From the IMG/VR virus record IMGVR_UViG_3300046542_000142, positions 1-63,670 of that record: a stretch of DNA of 63,670 nt; one strand, 5' to 3'. Below the pieces are notes generated by a model, which saw nothing but the letters and a program-made list of their open reading frames with translations, was not told the DNA's origin and made no database searches. The stretch comes from a virus. The position numbers and the translations under genes were made by a program. Below, piece after piece: positions 3,754 to 56,467 of this stretch. Each line of letters starts with the position of its first letter. The first letter of the stretch is position 1.

Positions 3754-4722
3754 TTACGAAGCAATATGATCCAGCGCTAGTGCACCGAAGTTAGCGCGCA
3801 TAGGAAAGTGTAACCCTACAGATTCCCGCCATATTTCGAGTGAGGGCTTCTTGTACCCGTACCGTATGTTATCCGACTTAATCTCATCCACAGCCCGCTT
3901 GTTTTCGAAGCACCAATAGGTGAACTTTTTAAATTCATCCGGAGTAAGCCCGTTTTGATGAGCCAACTTACCGACGAGCGATTCGAAAGTCAGGCGCGTT
4001 ATCCCAAAGTGCATCCCTTTCGTGGGGAACCACTCAAAGGGGTTCTTTGCTCTCTTAGAATTATTGGCTTGCCAACTGAGGGCCACCATATTTCCAACAT
4101 ACGTACCACAATGCCCTGTAGATAGCGGTATAAAATGATCCATCACGCTATTTCCTCCCCTCAATAACTCACTTGCCAGTTTCTTGTTCCAGTTGGAGGG
4201 AAGTCCTACGATCCGTGACCTACGCTTCTCCCCTCCTGCGACTATCGCCAACTTATCTGGCGGATTATTTCTAAGACCGCAACTCTTGCAATAACGCATA
4301 TAACCGTGTCTTGCCCTAGTATCTCGCGTGTACTCAGCAAGAGGAAGGTCACGTGAGCAGCACGGGCATAACTTGTATATGCAAGTAGCCAATGGCACTA
4401 AGTTTTTCTTGCTTAAGTACCCGGATATACCACCGTACTCCCGTCTTAAGTACATGATGGTGTATTGTGCAGGAACGGCCGTGTCTGCCTCCCATACCTC
4501 GGACAGTTTATCCAAGCTCACATAACCGCTATTAAACGCTAAGCTGATAAGTGCGTCAATTCGGTCCTCATGAAGGAGATAGTTCCCTGACTCATCAACT
4601 GGTTCCGTAACTTCTCCCACTTCATCGAAGGCGGCGTAGCTCTCCAGATTGTGTTTCCGCACCACTCTATTTACTTGATTATGATGTATGCCCAATTTGG
4701 CACCTACGGCATGTCTTGACAA
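3754..4722 (-). CDS. HNH-type homing endonuclease, 5' end apparently degenerate
   Basis: The readable part begins with a helix-turn-helix (LSRHAVGAKLGIHHNQVNRV) and has a zinc knuckle (CPCCSRDLPLAEYTRDTR, with YCKSCG). It ends with an HNH core, MDHFIPLSTGHCGTYVGNMV, followed by WQANNSKRAKNPFEW. No ATG or ribosome binding site suits this frame; TTG 4722 is only the first possible start, and the frame stays open upstream (KLSNEIQELLDSG) to a stop near 4796. A run of ten G residues at 4775-4784 lies there. In another frame just upstream, the sequence encodes a CETCGEC...FC zinc-knuckle-like stretch. One extra base would join the two, so the gene is either frameshifted or mis-sequenced at the G-run. 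Intergenic location and AT-richness suggest a mobile gene. Confidence 0.7.
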   Translation of the reverse strand: MSRHAVGAKLGIHHNQVNRVVRKHNLESYAAFDEVGEVTEPVDESGNYLLHEDRIDALISLAFNSGYVSLDKLSEVWEADTAVPAQYTIMYLRREYGGISGYLSKKNLVPLATCIYKLCPCCSRDLPLAEYTRDTRARHGYMRYCKSCGLRNNPPDKLAIVAGGEKRRSRIVGLPSNWNKKLASELLRGGNSVMDHFIPLSTGHCGTYVGNMVALSWQANNSKRAKNPFEWFPTKGMHFGITRLTFESLVGKLAHQNGLTPDEFKKFTYWCFENKRAVDEIKSDNIRYGYKKPSLEIWRESVGLHFPMRANFGALALDHIAS

Positions 4723-4859
4723 ACCGCTATCCAGTAGCTCTTGAATTTCATTTGATAACTTAGACAGAAAGGCGCCCCCCCCCCTACTTTATTTTGTCTT
4801 ACTGTAGCTACAACGCACTCCCCGCATGTTTCGCACGCTTTTTAGTAAAACGCAAATAA

Positions 4860-27337: not shown

Positions 27338-29095
27338 TTACATTCCTGCGGGTTTATTGCGTACACGGCGTTTAGCTTTCGCGACGTTCTCGACCGCCAT
27401 CGACAGCGCATCCGCCGAGTCAACGTAGTCGCCGCGTGGAAATTGCGCCAATTGGTCGAGAAGCATTGTGTGGCCTGCATTGAGAATGAGCGTTTTATTA
27501 TGGAACAACGGTTCGAGCGCCTCGATACGTTCGTCCTTACCGGACTTGTGCGCCTTAACATCGTTCAGCCGCGTTTTAGACAACCCTTCGATACGCAAGC
27601 GCTCCTGTAGCTGCCGATAAAATTCGTGCTGCGCATTAATCGTCTCAACGCTGAAAACGTGATGCTTGTACGTTTTAATCCGCTCGACAATCACGTCGAG
27701 TATCTTGTGCGGCTGCTCTTTCGTGGCGTATTCGTCAAGTATGAAGACATATCCGGTCTTATCGTGGCGGCCAACGGTCAGGACGGCGTTATAACAGGAT
27801 CGCGCGTTCTTACCCTGCGCAATATCCCACGCGCCGCTTATCGTCAGCTCCGACATAGGTATCCGCAAGTCTTCGTAACGGATAAAGCGTCGGCCATTAT
27901 CGTACTCATAGCGGTAATAACCGTAAGTGTCCGGGAAGAAGAATTGCTCGTCTTCGCTAAACGCTAGATTCCGGAACTCCGAGTTATATGCGCGTGTTCC
28001 CATGTTCACCTTTTCGTGCATAAGCGCGCGGTACGTCCAGCGCCACGGCCACGCCAAAATAACGCCGGCTTCGAGTTCGGCGCGATGTTCGTTATAAAAA
28101 TCGTCGGCGTCCGTAGACTCATCGTCAGATCGCGCATATATCTCGCAGTAGCGCTCCCATAGTTGCGGATTATCCGGCTCACTTACTACCGCGCCATGAA
28201 ACGAGGATTCGAAGTCCTTACGTTTGAGTACATGATTCAAAAGGCCGGTGGCGCTAACCATCGTACCGACGAGTATAATCGCAGTTGACTTCGATCCGAT
28301 CGGGACGACAACGGAGTTAAACCAGTGTACGAGCTTCTCGCGCGCTTCCTTCGTGCCTTCGTTGTTGATAGACGACGGATCATCGACGATAACAAGGTCC
28401 GGACGCTTTGAACCGTGGCGCATACCACGTAGCTGCTTACCCGATGATGACGCCTCGATGCGCGTGCCGGACGTTGTGATAAACGCCTCTTCGTTGTCCT
28501 TCTCGTTTTGGTTATTGCGCTCATGCAAAAGGGGACCGAAGTCCGCGCGTAGCTTCTCGTTAAATTTGAGCTGCTTGTTAATCCAGCCAATCAGCTTTTT
28601 CGATAGCGTGTCTGTCTCCGATATTTCCAAGATATAGCGCCGCTTTCGATACGCCGTTTGGTGCAACGGGAAGCTATTCGAGAACATACCGGATTTCGAG
28701 TGCCCACGCGCAGCCGCTATCGCAAGCCGAGCGCTTCTCTCAACGTGGTCAACGTGATTGCATAACTTAAAAAACTCCGCATGGATCGGCGCTATTTGTT
28801 CTAGCGGATCGTGCGGAGTTCCATCGTCGGCGTTCGCTATGATATTGTCTTCGTTGTCCGGATTGCCGGCGTCGGAGAGATATTCGTACGTAAAATATGC
28901 AACGTCATCCTCGGCGCGGTCGATCCGTTTGAGCCGTTTTAGTTCCGCAATGTCGGCGCGTAGTGATTCTTCGTGATACGTCGTCGCGCGGCCAGTCCGT
29001 ACAAGCTCGCGCAGTTTAACCGCCCGTTCGCCTACGAGTTTGATGCGCTCAGCACGCGCAGATTTATCGAGCCAAGCTTCGTTTACCCATGCGAT
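27338..29095 (-). CDS. terL: Terminase large subunit (apparent ATC start)
   Basis: About 585 residues if initiated at ATC 29095. A Walker A-like AAARGHSKSG lies at about 126-135, Walker B LVIVDDP near 235, and the nuclease acids are in GAWDIAQGK (about 424), FSVETINAQ and DSADALSMA. The frame is bounded upstream by the terS stop (TAA 29119-29117). No ATG, GTG or TTG occurs before ATG 28687, which would remove the Walker A motif. GGAGGGAGG ends 9 bases before ATC 29095, giving (M)AWVNEAWLDKSARAERIK. Non-canonical initiation is therefore likely; a sequencing error is the main alternative. It pumps DNA into the head and cuts it. Confidence 0.92.
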   Translation of the reverse strand: MAWVNEAWLDKSARAERIKLVGERAVKLRELVRTGRATTYHEESLRADIAELKRLKRIDRAEDDVAYFTYEYLSDAGNPDNEDNIIANADDGTPHDPLEQIAPIHAEFFKLCNHVDHVERSARLAIAAARGHSKSGMFSNSFPLHQTAYRKRRYILEISETDTLSKKLIGWINKQLKFNEKLRADFGPLLHERNNQNEKDNEEAFITTSGTRIEASSSGKQLRGMRHGSKRPDLVIVDDPSSINNEGTKEAREKLVHWFNSVVVPIGSKSTAIILVGTMVSATGLLNHVLKRKDFESSFHGAVVSEPDNPQLWERYCEIYARSDDESTDADDFYNEHRAELEAGVILAWPWRWTYRALMHEKVNMGTRAYNSEFRNLAFSEDEQFFFPDTYGYYRYEYDNGRRFIRYEDLRIPMSELTISGAWDIAQGKNARSCYNAVLTVGRHDKTGYVFILDEYATKEQPHKILDVIVERIKTYKHHVFSVETINAQHEFYRQLQERLRIEGLSKTRLNDVKAHKSGKDERIEALEPLFHNKTLILNAGHTMLLDQLAQFPRGDYVDSADALSMAVENVAKAKRRVRNKPAGM

Positions 29096-36839: not shown

Positions 36840-37255
36840 TATGCCGCCTCCGTTTCGTTATCGTCCGTAGTCTCTTCGTCCAGATCGTAGCTGACCGTAA
36901 TCTCGCCGTACTCCCACCGCTTATACACCGCCGCTATTCTTTCCGCTGCCTCACCGTAGAGCTTAGCAGCCGCCTGCTGCGTTATGCCCATGATGGCGGC
37001 GGCGTCCTTCTGCGTCATGTCTGCGCCGCTGATCCACGCGAGTGCTTCCGCCTGGCGCTCTGATAAGCCGGCGCTGAGGATAGCGGAATGAAGATCGAGT
37101 AAAATGCAGCTCGCGTCGGTGTCTCCGTGATACCGCGCGGAGTTAACGTGGTGGCGATCGCGGAGGAGCTTACGTACGCCCTCTGCGTCGTTGAGAACGT
37201 ATTTAACTTCGTATGTGCGTGCGCCTTTGTCTACGTCGATTTTTACAGACCCGAT
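36839..37255 (-). CDS. HTH protein, sigma region 4-like (apparent ATC/ATT start)
   Basis: About 138 residues. The N-terminal part GSVKIDVDKGARTYEVKYVL is followed by LSAGLSERQAEALAWISGAD and MTQKDAAAIMGITQQAAAKL, a helix-turn-helix of sigma-70 region 4 type. The frame lacks ATG, GTG or TTG until codons deep in the HTH. AGGGAG ends 9 bases before ATC 37255 (6 before ATT 37258). It ends in TEAA with a TAATG junction to the next gene. It could be a late-gene activator or sigma-like factor. Confidence 0.75.
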   Translation of the reverse strand: MGSVKIDVDKGARTYEVKYVLNDAEGVRKLLRDRHHVNSARYHGDTDASCILLDLHSAILSAGLSERQAEALAWISGADMTQKDAAAIMGITQQAAAKLYGEAAERIAAVYKRWEYGEITVSYDLDEETTDDNETEAA

Positions 37256-37557: not shown

Positions 37558-38696
37558 TACGCAGCCTCCCGCAGATCGACCGCTAAAGCTGCGTTAAGTT
37601 GCTCCGCCAGCGCGACTCCGATAACGTAGGAGACGCGCGATGCGACTCCGTTACCGACGATTCGGTATTGCGCGGATAGCGAGATTGTGTCCGGTAGCAC
37701 GTACGAATCGGGTACGGATTGGATGCGTAGGCATTCGCGGACGGTGAACCGGCGTGGCTGCGGCGCAGGGTGTACGCCTTCATTCCGTGCATGACTTCCT
37801 ACCGTCAGAGACGGCGACTCCCACGAAGCGACTCGATTAGCTTTCTCGTATGTCCAATCGGGATTAACATTGTCAAATAAATGGCCGTGATGATTATCGG
37901 TGTACGACGGGTGTACGAACGCCTTCCCTTCGTTAAATATCCGCCCCATTATCGTAGGGCTTGGTTCCTCCCATGGATTGACGCGGAACCCAAACGCCCC
38001 ACCTGCGTTCCTTCTAGCGTAACCCTCAAGAGCCTTCTCCGTGATTATTTTCTCTTCGTGATTTGCGATTGGTTCCGGTAAATCTCCGATGACATCGCGC
38101 AACACCTGCGTCCGATACTCTCCAACGCTTGGCTCCGGAAACTTAAACGTAAATCCGAGGTCTTTACGGATGCCGACGATAAACACGCGCTCTCTCTTCT
38201 GCGCCACTCCGTAATCCCAAGCGTTGATTAAGCGCCAGGTAATCGCGTAGCCAATCGCGTCAAACTCCGCAAGGAGAGCGTCAAAAGTCTGACGGTGCTT
38301 CTTCGTAATCAGCCCTTTAACGTTCTCGAATACGAAGGCTTCCGGCTGTCCATGCGAGATGTCTTCTAAGTAATCCCATACAAGTTTTCCTCGCGCTCCT
38401 TCTTCTCCTTCGCCAAGCCCAGCAACACTATAATCCTGACAAGGAGGCCCGCCAGCATAAACATTTGCGTGAGGTATCTTGGCTTTGATTTCCGCGCTCG
38501 TAATGTCCCCACAAATAACATGGTCGCCAATATTGTGAGCGTAAGCCTCTGCGGCACGTTTATCGAAGTCATTTGCGAAGATGATATCGTACCCCGCAGC
38601 CTTGAGTCCGACGGCCATCAGACCACCTCCGCAGAAGAACTCGGCTACTGTTAAGCCATTCGTAGGCAATTGCGGTGTTACGTTATAATTGCGTAT
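37557..38696 (-). CDS. DNA cytosine-5 methyltransferase (possible ATA start)
   Basis: About 379 residues with all key C5-MTase motifs: I (VAEFFCGGGLMAVGLKAAG), IV (GGPPCQDYSVAG, nucleophile Cys), VI (FVFENVKGL), VIII (QKRERVFIVG), IX (FTVRECLRIQSVPDSY) and X (QYRIVGNGVASRVSYVIG). It should modify phage DNA, protecting it from host restriction; no partner endonuclease is adjacent. AGGAG ends 9 bases before ATA 38696, giving (M)RNYNVTPQLPTNG. In-frame ATG 38744 exists but has no ribosome binding site and would overlap the upstream gene. Confidence 0.93.
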   Translation of the reverse strand: MRNYNVTPQLPTNGLTVAEFFCGGGLMAVGLKAAGYDIIFANDFDKRAAEAYAHNIGDHVICGDITSAEIKAKIPHANVYAGGPPCQDYSVAGLGEGEEGARGKLVWDYLEDISHGQPEAFVFENVKGLITKKHRQTFDALLAEFDAIGYAITWRLINAWDYGVAQKRERVFIVGIRKDLGFTFKFPEPSVGEYRTQVLRDVIGDLPEPIANHEEKIITEKALEGYARRNAGGAFGFRVNPWEEPSPTIMGRIFNEGKAFVHPSYTDNHHGHLFDNVNPDWTYEKANRVASWESPSLTVGSHARNEGVHPAPQPRRFTVRECLRIQSVPDSYVLPDTISLSAQYRIVGNGVASRVSYVIGVALAEQLNAALAVDLREAA

Positions 38697-43473: not shown

Positions 43474-43685
43474 GCGGCCATATCCTCCGCGTTTAGAGCA
43501 GCGTCTAACACATCATAGATAGCGTACCCACCGTCTGATGCGAGCGCTTCTCCGGGATATTCCTCCGCGACTTCGTCTAGCTTTTCTATACTCAGCCAAC
43601 CGAACACAGCGCGGAGCGTGCGTACCTCTTCCTCCGTGGCGATAATTTCGAAAAACTCCCGGTTATCCATTCGATCAATTCTCAT
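43470..43685 (-). CDS. Small acidic protein (71 aa)
   Basis: MRIDRMDNREFFEIIATEEE, then VFGWLSIEKLDEVAEEYPGE. Acidic and helical, coupled to both neighbours by 4-base overlaps. Family unknown. Confidence 0.6.
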   Translation of the reverse strand: MRIDRMDNREFFEIIATEEEVRTLRAVFGWLSIEKLDEVAEEYPGEALASDGGYAIYDVLDAALNAEDMAA

Positions 43686-44239
43686 GCCGCAATCCCTCCG
43701 ATTTCATCGATCATATTTTCGCGCAGTAAATACGATAGGCCAACCGCACACGCGTCACTGTCATCGTAACCGGGTCGCCATTTGTATCCGTCCGATAACC
43801 GCAGATACCTCCGCACGCCTTCCGCGACTTCCGGCTTCTCCGCTTTACCGCTGCCTGTTACGTATTTCTTAACGGACGGCGGAGATAGCGCGGGCTTCAA
43901 GTCCTCCGCCTGGTATCCGTACGCCGCGAGCGCTTTGTCTGCGGCGGCCCATGCGCTAAATATCGTTTGAGTCGCGCGCTTATTCCGTCCGGACGTAAAG
44001 TCTTCGCGGACTACGATATCGAACGGACGGTGCTCGCGGATGAACGCGGCGACAAACGTCTCGACCGTGTAATTCCGCACCGCATCCGTATCGGCCGTCG
44101 AAGTCGCTACGGAGTCACACGCGATAAGGTGCGGCGTGCGGCCCCGGACTTCCAACGCTGCGATGCCGGGGGATAACGATAGGTCGAGCGCAAGGATGCG
44201 GAAGTTAAATTCCGCTGGTTTCTTCGTCTTTGTCGCGAT
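43682..44239 (-). CDS. RuvC-like Holliday junction resolvase (apparent ATC start)
   Basis: About 185 residues. The first catalytic Asp is in FRILALDLSLSPGIAALEVR (D19), followed by IVVREDFTSG and the C-terminal DDSDACAVGLSYLL with paired acids, as in RuvC-fold resolvases. The first ATG/GTG/TTG in frame is TTG 44155, after D19, so it would remove the active-site residue. GGAGG ends 8 bases before ATC 44239, giving (M)ATKTKKPAEFNFRI. It overlaps the upstream gene by 35 bases. It would resolve branched replication intermediates before packaging. Confidence 0.85.
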   Translation of the reverse strand: MATKTKKPAEFNFRILALDLSLSPGIAALEVRGRTPHLIACDSVATSTADTDAVRNYTVETFVAAFIREHRPFDIVVREDFTSGRNKRATQTIFSAWAAADKALAAYGYQAEDLKPALSPPSVKKYVTGSGKAEKPEVAEGVRRYLRLSDGYKWRPGYDDSDACAVGLSYLLRENMIDEIGGIAA

Positions 44240-44661: not shown

Positions 44662-44927
44662 GCCGCCACCTTTCGAAATGTATAAACGGTGTTTCGCGTC
44701 GTCACGCGCAGCCGCCCGTCGTCCGTATATACCGCCTCAATTACGCTGCTCGTACGAAGCAGCGCGTCCCCGTAGTCGATGTACGCGAGGACCATTGCGT
44801 CACCATGTTCGAGGTGTACGATTCTGACGGCGTGTCCTTTTCGTCTGTCCTCGCGCTCAGGGTGCGTGTCATCGGCCCGGTTACGGACGGGCTCGATTGT
44901 GAATATCTGCGGATCACTTGCGTACAT
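44658..44927 (-). CDS. Hypothetical beta-rich protein (89 aa)
   Basis: MYASDPQIFTIEPVRNRADD, then GHAVRIVHLEHGDAMVLAYI and DDGRLRVTTRNTVYTFRKVAA. ATG 44927 follows a GGAGGCGGCGTAAT ribosome binding site made from the upstream KEAA-stop codons. Family unknown. Confidence 0.65.
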   Translation of the reverse strand: MYASDPQIFTIEPVRNRADDTHPEREDRRKGHAVRIVHLEHGDAMVLAYIDYGDALLRTSSVIEAVYTDDGRLRVTTRNTVYTFRKVAA

Positions 44928-44928
44928 A

Positions 44929-45408
44929 TTACGCCGCCTCCTTCATAATCACTTCAACCGCAGCATCGTTCCTATCAACCGCAGACAGCAAGAACTCGAC
45001 CATATCTTGAGCGTCTTCGGGTGCTTCTCGGATCGTAACGGCTGCGGAGACGGCCACGGTAAACATCTCGACAAGGGAGTCTCGTAGGCTAGATATCCTT
45101 CTCTCCGCCAATGTCGCTCTCACTCTGTGCGTTTCCATGGCATGACACACCGCAGCATATGCTTCTGGCGTGGGGTACTTGCGGAGTGCCTCGCGCTTCC
45201 AAAACTCGCACCAGGCATCCGCCTCTGCCAACTCGATAGCCGCCACAGTAGACTCGCACTCGCCTTGCGCTGTATCGTAAACCTTCTGCCTCAGGTCAAA
45301 GACGCGTACTGTATCTCCGTCGTTAGTCACCGATACATCTCCTCTTACACTGAGCGCAAGCAGTCCGTCGTACAGCGCCATCAGTTCCGTATAAGAAAAC
45401 TCAGACAT
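44929..45408 (-). CDS. Hypothetical protein (159 aa)
   Basis: MSEFSYTELMALYDGLLALS, then VRVFDLRQKVYDTAQGECES and helices to DRNDAAVEVIMKEAA. ATG 45408 has GGAGG exactly 9 bases upstream within the KEAA-stop codons of the nuclease gene. Codon use is somewhat less biased than neighbours. Family unknown. Confidence 0.65.
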   Translation of the reverse strand: MSEFSYTELMALYDGLLALSVRGDVSVTNDGDTVRVFDLRQKVYDTAQGECESTVAAIELAEADAWCEFWKREALRKYPTPEAYAAVCHAMETHRVRATLAERRISSLRDSLVEMFTVAVSAAVTIREAPEDAQDMVEFLLSAVDRNDAAVEVIMKEAA

Positions 45409-45409
45409 A

Positions 45410-46441
45410 TTACGCGGCCTCCTTCGCTGACTCTTCGAATCTAATCCGCTGAATCTCCGCGAGCGCTTCGGCTGGCCCGCGCTTCTTCCAGTCCGGCAGG
45501 CTCGACCGGTTAATCGCACTGACCTTCCGTTCAATGACCGCGATTTCCTCTTCCGTTAAGGAAAGCGCACAGGCGCGCTTGAAATTGTTAAACGTAAAGT
45601 TTTCGATATCGAGGGGCGGCGGCGTCTTCGTATTGACCGCGTGGACAATGTCCGCGAAGCCGTCGAATACCTCTGCGCGCATCTCGTCCGTAATATACAG
45701 GCCGTACGCCTTGATATCCGGTGTCTTCGCGAAGTCCTCGGCGGTCATTTCCCACGCCTTTTTAGCGCAGTTAACGTAGAGAATTACGTAATAATCAACG
45801 CTGTACATTTGCGAGTAGCAGACCGTTTGCTTAACGTGCTTTTCGTCCGGACCATTACGCGTTGAGTATTCGGACGTCTTGGCCGACGTAGTTTGCTTCG
45901 ATTTCACTTCGAGGCCGACGCGCAGCACTTCGCCGTCATCCGTCCGGTAAAGCATCATACCGTCGCAGAATCCGTATAGCGCGAAGACAGCGCCGTTGTG
46001 TGTAATATGCGTCAGGCCAGGCGCAAACTGTTCGAAGCGCGGCTCGCCCTGCGTGTTACGTTCGAATACAAAACGTGGGAGGACTCCGGTGGCCTTGGCA
46101 TAGTGTTTCTCCGCGAAGAGAATATCGCGCTGTATCATGTCGCCAACCTGCGTACCGAGCCGAGTCCAGCGCCCTTGATGCGGCGGCTGACCGGCTCCGT
46201 CCTTATTCGCGCCGAGCGCCTTTTCGTAAAGTGAGCGCGGACATGCGCCAGCGGCCGACGGAGAGAAATACGGAATGTTACGCGGCGGCCATACCTTGCG
46301 CGATTTATCCGTGAGGACAGCGGCGTACCAGGCGTGAATCTGCGCGTCGAGCGCGTCGTCGTACGTTTCCGGCTGCGAGTGCCAAACGTTGAGATATGCG
46401 GTAAAGTCCTCCGCGATTTGATTAGCGATTGATTGCGTAAT
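45410..46441 (-). CDS. PD-(D/E)XK nuclease, Cas4/RecB-like (apparent ATT start)
   Basis: About 343 residues. YFSPSAAGACPRSLYEKALG (58-77; CPR-Y motif), then GTQVGDMIQRDILFAEKHY, the catalytic Asp in FCDGMMLYR (about 160) and LEVKSK (E178, K180), then KQTVCYSQMY (the QxxxY element). This is the RecB/Cas4/YqaJ nuclease layout. The first ATG in frame (46138) would remove the CPR motif; no GTG or TTG occurs earlier. AAGGAGG lies 9 bases before ATT 46441, directly after the upstream stop, exactly as in sibling junctions with ATG. Likely a recombination or host-DNA degrading exonuclease. Confidence 0.85.
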   Translation of the reverse strand: MTQSIANQIAEDFTAYLNVWHSQPETYDDALDAQIHAWYAAVLTDKSRKVWPPRNIPYFSPSAAGACPRSLYEKALGANKDGAGQPPHQGRWTRLGTQVGDMIQRDILFAEKHYAKATGVLPRFVFERNTQGEPRFEQFAPGLTHITHNGAVFALYGFCDGMMLYRTDDGEVLRVGLEVKSKQTTSAKTSEYSTRNGPDEKHVKQTVCYSQMYSVDYYVILYVNCAKKAWEMTAEDFAKTPDIKAYGLYITDEMRAEVFDGFADIVHAVNTKTPPPLDIENFTFNNFKRACALSLTEEEIAVIERKVSAINRSSLPDWKKRGPAEALAEIQRIRFEESAKEAA

Positions 46442-46442
46442 A

Positions 46443-46847
46443 TTAAGCCGCCTCCTTTAGCGTGGTTGATCCGGCCAGGTCACGTAGAGCTTCGGTCAGC
46501 TCTGTAGCAAACCGGTTGCTATCGTCGTACCAGCCGCCTTTGCCGAGATTTCCGTTGGTCAGGCGATGTTGTAGCGCTTCGACCGTAGTCTCCTCCGGGT
46601 TCCACTGACCCTCCAATCCGTAGCACGAACAGTGTCCGCCGTTTACTTCGTATATCTTTCCGTCAGACTTACGCCGGAACAAGACAAACGCGTCCCCTTC
46701 GTAATTCTCATTCGTGTAACTGGCGAGGATAATTTCGATATCGTCTTTATCCGTAATTGGATGGCGTGGCCCTGAACTCCACGTATCCTCGAAGTCCTCG
46801 TACATGCGTTCTACGCTGCTCCAATCGTTCAGCATAATCGGTCTCAT
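46443..46847 (-). CDS. Conserved phage protein (134 aa)
   Basis: MRPIMLNDWSSVERMYEDFE followed by DIEIILASYTNENYEGDAFV, YEVNGGHCSCYGLEGQWNPE and ETTVEALQHRL. The EGDAFVLF...YEVNG.HCSC.GLE.QW.PEETT pattern recurs in many Gram-positive phages, function unknown. It ends in KEAA. Confidence 0.72.
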   Translation of the reverse strand: MRPIMLNDWSSVERMYEDFEDTWSSGPRHPITDKDDIEIILASYTNENYEGDAFVLFRRKSDGKIYEVNGGHCSCYGLEGQWNPEETTVEALQHRLTNGNLGKGGWYDDSNRFATELTEALRDLAGSTTLKEAA

Positions 46848-51586: not shown

Positions 51587-52069
51587 TTAGGCTGCGCTAG
51601 GTAACTCCGTTTCCTCTACGCTCAAGACCGCTGCGGCCTCTGTATAGACATCGCGGTTCAGCGCGAGGCTCAGCTCAACCCAGCGCTCAGACGCTTTAGC
51701 TTCGGAACACCAGTACTCCCCGAGAAGCCGATTCTCGAACATGTAAACGCGCGGCACTTCGCCCTCAACGATCCAGACGCCAATTATCAGATCAGCGTCG
51801 GCTAAGTCGTAAATGGTTCCGTTACCTTTCTTCGCGTATACTACGAGGTCACCGCCGCGATCCTTACGCTGGCGAATCGTCTTAATTTGAATCTTCGCGT
51901 AATCACCGCTGACCGGGTCTTTCGCGAGCACATCATACGCCTCGTCAGTTTCCGCCTGATGAACGGTCCAGCCGTTAGCCAACAGCGCTAATCGTGCTGC
52001 CAATTCCGAGTACTTCCCTACGTTTTCACTTAAGTGGGCCGTTTTAACCACGCTCCTCTGCGTCTTCAT
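51587..52069 (-). CDS. PD-(D/E)XK endonuclease-like protein
   Basis: About 150-160 residues. NVGKYSELAARLALLANGWT is followed by DEAYDVLAKDPVSGDYAKIQIKT, split here as YDVLAKDP and AKIQIKTIRQR; the E...D...QIK arrangement is the PD-(D/E)XK nuclease core. ATG 52069 has no ribosome binding site. GAGGAG further in lies 10 bases before an in-frame ACG (52036 region), so the true start is uncertain and could be non-canonical. Likely a recombination nuclease. Confidence 0.72.
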   Translation of the reverse strand: MKTQRSVVKTAHLSENVGKYSELAARLALLANGWTVHQAETDEAYDVLAKDPVSGDYAKIQIKTIRQRKDRGGDLVVYAKKGNGTIYDLADADLIIGVWIVEGEVPRVYMFENRLLGEYWCSEAKASERWVELSLALNRDVYTEAAAVLSVEETELPSAA

Positions 52070-55507: not shown

Positions 55508-56467
55508 TCAACGTATTTTTAAACGCGGTCGCACCGTATCAATCCGCTTAGCACTTTCGCAAGCCAATCGCGTACCCTCGATACCTACCGCGTTGAAATC
55601 CTTACCTCCGCTAATCTCTACGTTGTACAGCCGTACATACCCGCGCATCTTCCGCGTTATCTCCCAGCGCAGCTTCTCGCCGGCCTCATCGTTATCGCCC
55701 GCGATTAGCAGCTCCTCAATCGGACTCCTACGTAATAACTCCGCTTTCTCATCCGTAAACTCGCTGCCACCAACCGCCAGCCCAAACGTACCGGCCGACG
55801 CAGCCGTCATCGCGTCTATTTCCGCCTCAACGATAACCGCCCGCTTAATATTTCTTCGGTAGACTGCGTCGATTCCGTAAATCATCGATTTAACCGGCGC
55901 GCCACCTTTCGCGTACCAAAACGCTTTCCCCCACGTAGCGCGCCACTTCGCGTTCATAACGTCGCCGTTTGGTCCGCCCCACGGCATCACAACGGCATTC
56001 TTCGCGTTGTCGTATCCGCATCTGTACAGCCGCTGAATAATTGGCGCTATTCCACGGCCGGTTAGATACGGAACTTCCTGCTCGATAAACGCTGTGATGT
56101 CGAGGGGCCTGCGTTTAGCTGGCGGTCCCGTGCCGCGTAAGTTAATCCGCAATTCCGGCCGCGCGTATGCGTCAGGGACTTCGTACAAAATTTCACAAGC
56201 CTCAGCGTTTGTTATGTTCCGCAAGAATGCGTACAAACGGATGGGGCCGCCGCTCTGCCAATCCGGATCGATCGCACCTTTATCCGACCAGCATCCGTAA
56301 TACTGTGACGCGCGGTCTAAGTTGATAAAGAAAGATGGCGCGTTATCACTCCGTAAGCCGAACGGCGAGCTCGCGATGAGCTTCGTTGCGTGCGGGATGA
56401 CATTGCGCCAGGGGTAGCGTTCTATTTCAGCGTCGAGGGCGTCTACGTTAAGTAAATTGCGGTCGAT
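55508..56467 (-). CDS. DnaG-type primase with TOPRIM domain (apparent ATC start)
   Basis: About 319 residues. N-terminal KLIASSPFGLRSDNAPSFFI and ASQYYGCWSDKGAI (about 33-70) form the primase-type SPF...PSF.v......YGC motif without the full CHC2 zinc ligands. TOPRIM follows, with VIVEAEIDAM (E about 214) and IAGDNDEAGEKL (DxD about 258). The first in-frame TTG (56236) would delete the N-terminal domain, and no ATG/GTG/TTG precedes it. GGAGG ends 7 bases before ATC 56467. A consensus promoter at 56591-56563 drives it. It makes RNA primers for the phage fork. Confidence 0.88.
   Translation of the reverse strand: MDRNLLNVDALDAEIERYPWRNVIPHATKLIASSPFGLRSDNAPSFFINLDRASQYYGCWSDKGAIDPDWQSGGPIRLYAFLRNITNAEACEILYEVPDAYARPELRINLRGTGPPAKRRPLDITAFIEQEVPYLTGRGIAPIIQRLYRCGYDNAKNAVVMPWGGPNGDVMNAKWRATWGKAFWYAKGGAPVKSMIYGIDAVYRRNIKRAVIVEAEIDAMTAASAGTFGLAVGGSEFTDEKAELLRRSPIEELLIAGDNDEAGEKLRWEITRKMRGYVRLYNVEISGGKDFNAVGIEGTRLACESAKRIDTVRPRLKIR

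Follow-up and report, generated by a model that had tools for sequence, protein, structure and literature searches.

To our knowledge, few bacterial genes have been described with non-canonical translational starts. IF3 represses initiation where the codon is not ATG, GTG or TTG (PMC5472188; PMC2268962), and the level of IF3 affects the propagation of phage M13 (PMC2268962). The sigR gene of Streptomyces starts at GTC and is repressed by IF3 (PMC5472188), and in E. coli the AUU start of pcnB holds down the level at which poly(A) polymerase is expressed (Binns and Masters 2002, cited in PMC9410913). When located behind extended Shine-Dalgarno (SD) sequences, the AUU and AUA starts of S. aureus give about 10% of the expression obtained with AUG (PMC13009471).

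The window analyzed here is a stretch of 63,670 nucleotides from a Paenibacillus-group bacterial virus (IMG/VR record IMGVR_UViG_3300046542_000142). Its minus strand includes a gene for a putative Cas4/RecB-fold PD-(D/E)XK nuclease (phrog_1706; positions 45410 to 46441, 343 amino acids plus the stop codon) with a candidate ATT start at 46439 to 46441. The junction reads ctaAAGGAGGcggcttaat followed by ATTacgcaatca, with the ATT at 46441-46439, the end of the GGAGG at 46451 and a 9-nt spacing between them. The complete SD, AAAGGAGG, occupies positions 46451 to 46458, and its duplex with the anti-SD has a calculated energy of -12.6 kcal/mol. The junction ahead of the gene at 45408 (GGAGGccgcgtaat followed by ATG) likewise has a 9-nt spacing. 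A pattern search of the window with GGAGGCNGCNTAATATK found exactly three matches: the minus-strand sibling junctions at 44925-44941 (GGAGGCGGCGTAATATG) and, ahead of the next gene, at 45406-45422 (GGAGGCCGCGTAATATG), both with ATG, and the nuclease junction at 46439-46455, with ATT. In 100 shuffles, the mean number of matches was 0.00 and the maximum 0. The original prediction that the ATT stands exactly where sibling junctions have ATG, at the same 9-base spacing, was therefore borne out, with two siblings. The nuclease frame opens at 46456, immediately past an in-frame stop codon, and ends with the stop at 45412-45410; just five open codons lie upstream of the ATT. No ATG, GTG or TTG occurs in this frame before ATG 46138, which codes for residue 102 of the product and is not preceded by an SD. 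As had also been predicted, the preceding stretch of about 100 codons includes the CPRSLYE motif (residues 67-73) and has no usual start codon. Local RNA structure hiding the nuclease start was rejected as an explanation, since the folding energy obtained for the window, -9.8 kcal/mol, was no stronger than that of shuffles (z 0.55).

Gene callers place the start of this gene at internal canonical codons. In the GenBank entries of the Paenibacillus larvae Halcyonevirus phages, the annotated nuclease starts are 16, 47 or 53 codons inside the position homologous to the ATT. Translation from ATG 46138 would leave the first 101 codons untranslated, and this is extremely unlikely in view of the comparison with relatives. 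The dN/dS of codons 2-100 ranges from 0.06 to 0.25, the same as in the rest of the gene, invariant residues are present within residues 1-101 of the alignment, and the first canonical codon is placed differently from relative to relative. As judged by these sequence comparisons, codons 2-100 are under purifying selection and translated. The predicted structure of the nuclease (pLDDT 90, and 94-96 over residues 1-20) agrees with this conclusion. Its best structural match was Cas4 SSO0001 (4ic1; Z 12.2, 182 residues, model residues 51-294), and lambda exonuclease was matched from residue 45 with a Z of 10.4. Both matches, and with them the predicted fold core, start near model residues 45-54, well ahead of the first canonical Met, and the predicted fold would need codons 2-100. 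The proposal that residues 1-101 are part of a Cas4/RecB-like nuclease was supported by both the low dN/dS and this fold.

The catalytic motifs D160, E178xK180 and Q205xxxY209 are invariant in 21 relatives, and the phrog_1706 profile, annotated as 'CRISPR/Cas system associated', matched residues 23-335 with an E value of 7.4e-60. A Pfam search of the nuclease returned no significant match, and a sequence-profile search for solved relatives returned none. The protein is a predicted PD-(D/E)XK nuclease that has the fold and the catalytic motif common to the Cas4/RecB/lambda-exonuclease group. It differs from Cas4 in its extra N-terminal helices and in its cysteines: none is invariant, only C208 is nearly so, and relatives have other residues in place of the window's C67. 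Lacking conserved iron-sulphur cysteines, the protein does not qualify as Cas4 proper. The gene is located in a phage replication operon, with a family A DNA polymerase gene upstream and a RuvC gene downstream, and no CRISPR locus was seen nearby.

A single-sequence scan of whole bacterial genomes found no relatives of the nuclease, and bacterial relatives were recovered with an alignment query instead. IMG/VR relatives that are 93%, 89% and 66% identical all have ATT at the same codon. The Halcyonevirus nucleases are about 57% identical and align from residue 1; Unity, Tripp and C7Cdelta, as well as phage Heath, have ATC at the start site, behind AAAGGGGGAGATCGT. Starts were assigned in 68 distinct nuclease genes from the SD and the in-frame stop, partly by eye, as ATT (18), ATC (18), CTG (4), ATA (2), TTG (12), ATG (12) and GTG (2). 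Thus 42 of the 68 genes have a near-cognate codon at the site corresponding to the ATT, which supports the ATT as the start codon, and the alignment of homologues that had been proposed as a check confirmed a near-cognate start at the same site in relatives. The ATT is one base away from ATG, and it could have arisen by an error in sequencing or by a recent mutation that inactivated the gene in this one genome. The probability of such an origin is vanishingly small, and conservation refutes it: dozens of phages and host genomes that were sequenced independently, finished GenBank phages among them, have ATT, ATC, ATA or CTG at this site. Since the near-cognate start is conserved independently in relatives, finding an ATG in the raw reads is implausible.

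The surroundings of the site are also informative. The distance from the SD core to the start is 7-11 nt in every near-cognate nuclease gene. In 20 of these 42 genes an in-frame stop immediately precedes the start codon (for example, AAGGAGGCGGTTTAA followed by ATT, ATC or CTG), so there is no usable start upstream in them. Codon 2 is variable (ACG, TCG, ACA, GGT and others), and it is not the start because TCG or GGT would be unable to serve as one. Taken together, the sequence comparisons indicate that it is close to certain that the nuclease initiates at ATT 46441. Two peculiarities were observed among the relatives. In four genes from other Bacilli (L079, L080, L081 and L088) the start is GGAGGACGATGCNNT followed by ATC (GGGGACGATGCTCT in L080), and all four have an out-of-frame ATG 7 nt before the ATC, which could act as a decoy that further lowers initiation. 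In L070/L075, both from one prophage (G165), two overlapping frames take the place of the single nuclease frame and break it near residue 222; the probable cause is a frameshift, either in the assembly or in a prophage undergoing decay.

Upstream of the nuclease lies a gene for a 134-amino-acid protein (46443 to 46847, minus strand; phrog_21421), and the SD of the nuclease is located within its last codons. Its TAA ends 1 nt before the ATT, and its frame differs from that of the nuclease. This protein matches phrog_21421, which is labelled 'integrase', with an E value of 1e-38; the label looks doubtful, as the protein is too short for an integrase. The arrangement brings up the question of whether frameshifting, or readthrough of the stop codon, fuses the nuclease to the upstream protein. 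The window has an SD-like sequence just before the stop and an RF2-like GCTTAA slip, the DEDDh exonuclease gene of Unity has a slippery-looking A_AAG_GGG heptamer, and in some relatives a single same-frame TAA separates the two frames. However, the gene upstream of the nuclease codes for the 134-amino-acid protein in the window, a zinc-ribbon protein in L001/L002, an 84-amino-acid protein in L003 and the DEDDh exonuclease in Halcyonevirus, and its frame relation to the nuclease also varies among them, while the weak start and the SD spacing are nearly constant. A common frameshift or readthrough fusion is excluded because neither the upstream gene nor the frame relation is shared among relatives, and we consider production of the nuclease as a fusion exceedingly improbable.

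In a 38-gene clade of the nuclease tree, formed almost entirely by genes from Paenibacillus phages or prophages, the start codons are ATT (17), ATC (11), CTG (4), TTG (4) and ATA (2), and ATG and GTG are both absent. The tree, which was produced by a quick search and leaves the long branches L050, L085, L051, L087 and L083 outside this clade, has at least 12 codon changes at the start site within it. The comparison shows a near-cognate start that is kept while the codon itself turns over among ATT, ATC, ATA, CTG and TTG. ATG or GTG starts were found in homologues from Enterococcus, Sporosarcina, Listeria, Carnobacterium and some other Bacilli, and the Bacillus phage homologues start at TTG or GTG. 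The mean SD energy is -12.6 in the near-cognate genes vs -9.2 in the ATG homologues (p = 2e-6, uncorrected for kinship). The absence of ATG over 12 changes, although the weak codons are one base away from it, suggests selection against a strong start.

Near-cognate starts are not limited to the nuclease. The RuvC-like resolvase of the window (phrog_159; 43685 to 44239, minus strand) has a candidate ATC start at 44239 behind AAGGAGGCGGAAACG and an N-terminal region without a canonical start. Among 39 RuvC genes of the phage group with an SD-supported start, the codon with the best SD is CTG in 16, ACG in 8, ATC in 6, ATA in 5, TTG in 2, GTG in 1 and ATG in 1; it is thus CTG, ACG, ATC or ATA in 35 of the 39, and 26 of the 39 have no canonical codon in the region. 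The RuvC genes of L031, L035, L065, L066 and L075 have an ACG exactly 9 nt after the GGAGG and a variable preceding codon (ATT, CTT, ACT or CAG), and this combination points to ACG starts in those five genes. The terminase large subunit gene (phrog_38; 27341 to 29095, minus strand) has an ATC start at 29095 behind GGAGGGAGGTGCGTTCGC, and its first canonical codon is 136 codons downstream. The terminase start is ATCGCATGG, with ATC, in the window and in G002 and G003, whose terminases are 34% identical to that of the window, and ATGGCGTGG, with ATG, in Heath. The DNA primase gene (phrog_47; 55511 to 56467, minus strand) has an ATC start at 56467 behind GGGAGGAGGAAAAGCC, while its relatives have ATG. 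The start of the DNA polymerase is ATG in the window and in G003 (ATGGACGTT), ATA in G002 (ATAGACGTT) and in L031, ACG in Heath (ACGAAATTC) and ATC in L040, and that of the portal protein is ATA in G002 and CTG in Heath. When the portal and polymerase starts of Heath are reassigned, they fill annotation gaps of about 140 nt that precede these genes. In the GenBank entry of Heath (L100, MH460826; positions 3742, 36907, 40925 and 41919), the annotated starts of the portal, DNA polymerase, nuclease and RuvC genes are 16-43 codons inside the likely true ones (CTG, ACG, ATC and CTG, respectively). The comparison thus shows strong SDs, and it shows that near-cognate starts recur in these phages, in the genes for RuvC, terminase, polymerase and portal.

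The window has further candidate cases. A small helix-turn-helix/sigma-like protein (36842 to 37255, minus strand), one of the less certain cases, probably starts at the ATC at 37255, or at the adjacent ATT, behind AAAAAGGGAG, and its G002 homologue has the same start layout. The C5 DNA methyltransferase (37560 to 38696, minus strand) has a possible ATA start at 38696 behind GAGAGGAGACGATAACC, and the canonical codons upstream of it have no SD. An HNH-like endonuclease ORF (3757-4767, minus strand) probably starts at the CTG at 4767; the ten consecutive G that precede it (TAGGGGGGGGGGCGCCTTT followed by CTG) overlap the SD and could vary in number. The phrog_5018 protein (51590-52069, minus strand) has an ATG at 52069 without an SD and an ACG at 52042 with a strong one (AGAGGAGCGTGGTTAAA followed by ACG).

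One fixed rule was applied to phage and host ORFs, and it flagged 20 of 216 phage ORFs vs none of 127 host ORFs (Fisher p 1.4e-4), the host control being 160 kb of the chromosome of a single species, P. abyssi. The rule is heuristic, and a few of the flagged ORFs are doubtful (61855, plus strand, in G003; 42546 in Heath). These comparisons bear on the chief rival explanation, in which the ATT is the true start and its weakness is not selected. The ribosomes of the hosts would tolerate near-cognate codons behind strong SDs, and the codons would drift neutrally. The turnover of the codon at the nuclease site and the number of gene families affected are both compatible with drift, and the polymerase, primase and portal genes, which have ATG in one phage and a near-cognate codon in another, may have start codons that drift. 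Nevertheless, drift does not readily account for a clade in which none of 38 nuclease genes has ATG or GTG after at least 12 changes, for the retention of ATG and an SD by most genes of the same phages, for the lack of near-cognate-only genes among the 127 host ORFs, or for SDs that are stronger where the codon is weak. We consider drift unlikely as an explanation of the nuclease start. Selection of the weakness is favored because ATG is absent, the SDs are stronger (a comparison uncorrected for kinship) and the proteins concerned are either enzymes or components present in few copies.

We hypothesize that the ordinary initiator tRNA (fMet) would pair with ATT 46441 with one mismatch, and that the unusually strong SD, directly behind the upstream stop codon, would hold it there. 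The strong SD and the nearby stop would permit slow initiation or re-initiation, slow because IF3, by analogy with other bacteria, would reject the near-cognate codon. Little nuclease, and little of other catalytic or low-stoichiometry proteins, would then be made from a polycistronic mRNA shared with ATG-starting neighbors. Selection would act on the weak start as a means of limiting dosage, and the nuclease level may track that of IF3 or free 30S subunits in infection. A further alternative is that a phage factor, such as a modified IF3, an initiator-like tRNA or a ribosome modification, opens near-cognate starts in infection, so that these starts act as a switch timing several genes together. 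Near-cognate starts are common to several gene families in one phage, and the IF3 effect on M13 also speaks for the idea. All the codons are, however, one mismatch away from the ordinary initiator anticodon, making a new tRNA unnecessary, and no factor of this kind was identified; a phage initiator tRNA was rejected since the window has no tRNA gene. A timing switch of this type is very unlikely. The dosage-limiting reading, a near-cognate, IF3-sensitive start behind a strong SD that was selected to limit the amount of nuclease, is in our judgment quite probable, with the reduced expression and the IF3 dependence inferred from other bacteria. We also lean, with less assurance, toward a broader proposal. 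The Paenibacillus phage lineage may use near-cognate starts (ATT, ATC, ATA, CTG and ACG) behind very strong SDs as a heritable dosage dial. The dial would act on DNA enzymes and low-stoichiometry proteins that recur as a set (nuclease, RuvC, terminase, polymerase, portal and sometimes primase and methyltransferase), the weak codons would be freely exchanged, and ATG would be selected against at the nuclease.

A weak start that is kept across a phage clade while its codon changes is the picture expected from selection on the strength of initiation and not on the codon, and the site allows a direct test of codon strength against nuclease level and phage fitness. There is also a practical consequence. 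Gene finders accept only ATG, GTG and TTG, and as a result the nuclease, RuvC, portal and polymerase of these phages are too short in public annotations, the missing part often amounting to tens of residues.

A literature search of open-access papers found no report of near-cognate starts of this type in phages, which is weak evidence of absence, and none of a clade in which a weak start persists although its codon changes. Non-canonical starts are known from the single genes infC, pcnB, ccpN, cvfC1 and sigR, and their clade-wide use by phages appears to be undescribed. The nuclease shares with the IF3-discriminated starts of infC, pcnB, ccpN and sigR a non-canonical true 5' start without a usable canonical alternative, a strong SD at the proper spacing and the conservation of the weak start among relatives. 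The infC gene, which codes for IF3 in E. coli and other bacteria, likewise has a conserved near-cognate ATN start (AUU, AUC or AUA) that IF3 rejects (PMC5472188; PMC9410913); its codon serves IF3 autoregulation, whereas in the phages the genes are those of DNA enzymes and the codon itself turns over. The Staphylococcus and Bacillus genes cvfC1 (AUU) and ccpN (AUA) also combine a weak start with an extended SD and are conserved within the Bacilli, but they belong to host regulators and small proteins, and the accessible portion of PMC13009471 describes no phage case. As happened with the phage nuclease, the start of sigR was once misannotated, and its weak start sets stoichiometry within an operon, although sigR uses GTC and is one gene of actinobacteria (PMC5472188). 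The closest system in purpose is pcnB, where a weak AUU limits the expression of an enzyme (cited in PMC9410913); pcnB is one chromosomal gene, whereas in the phages the weak starts extend across a clade and stand behind very strong SDs.
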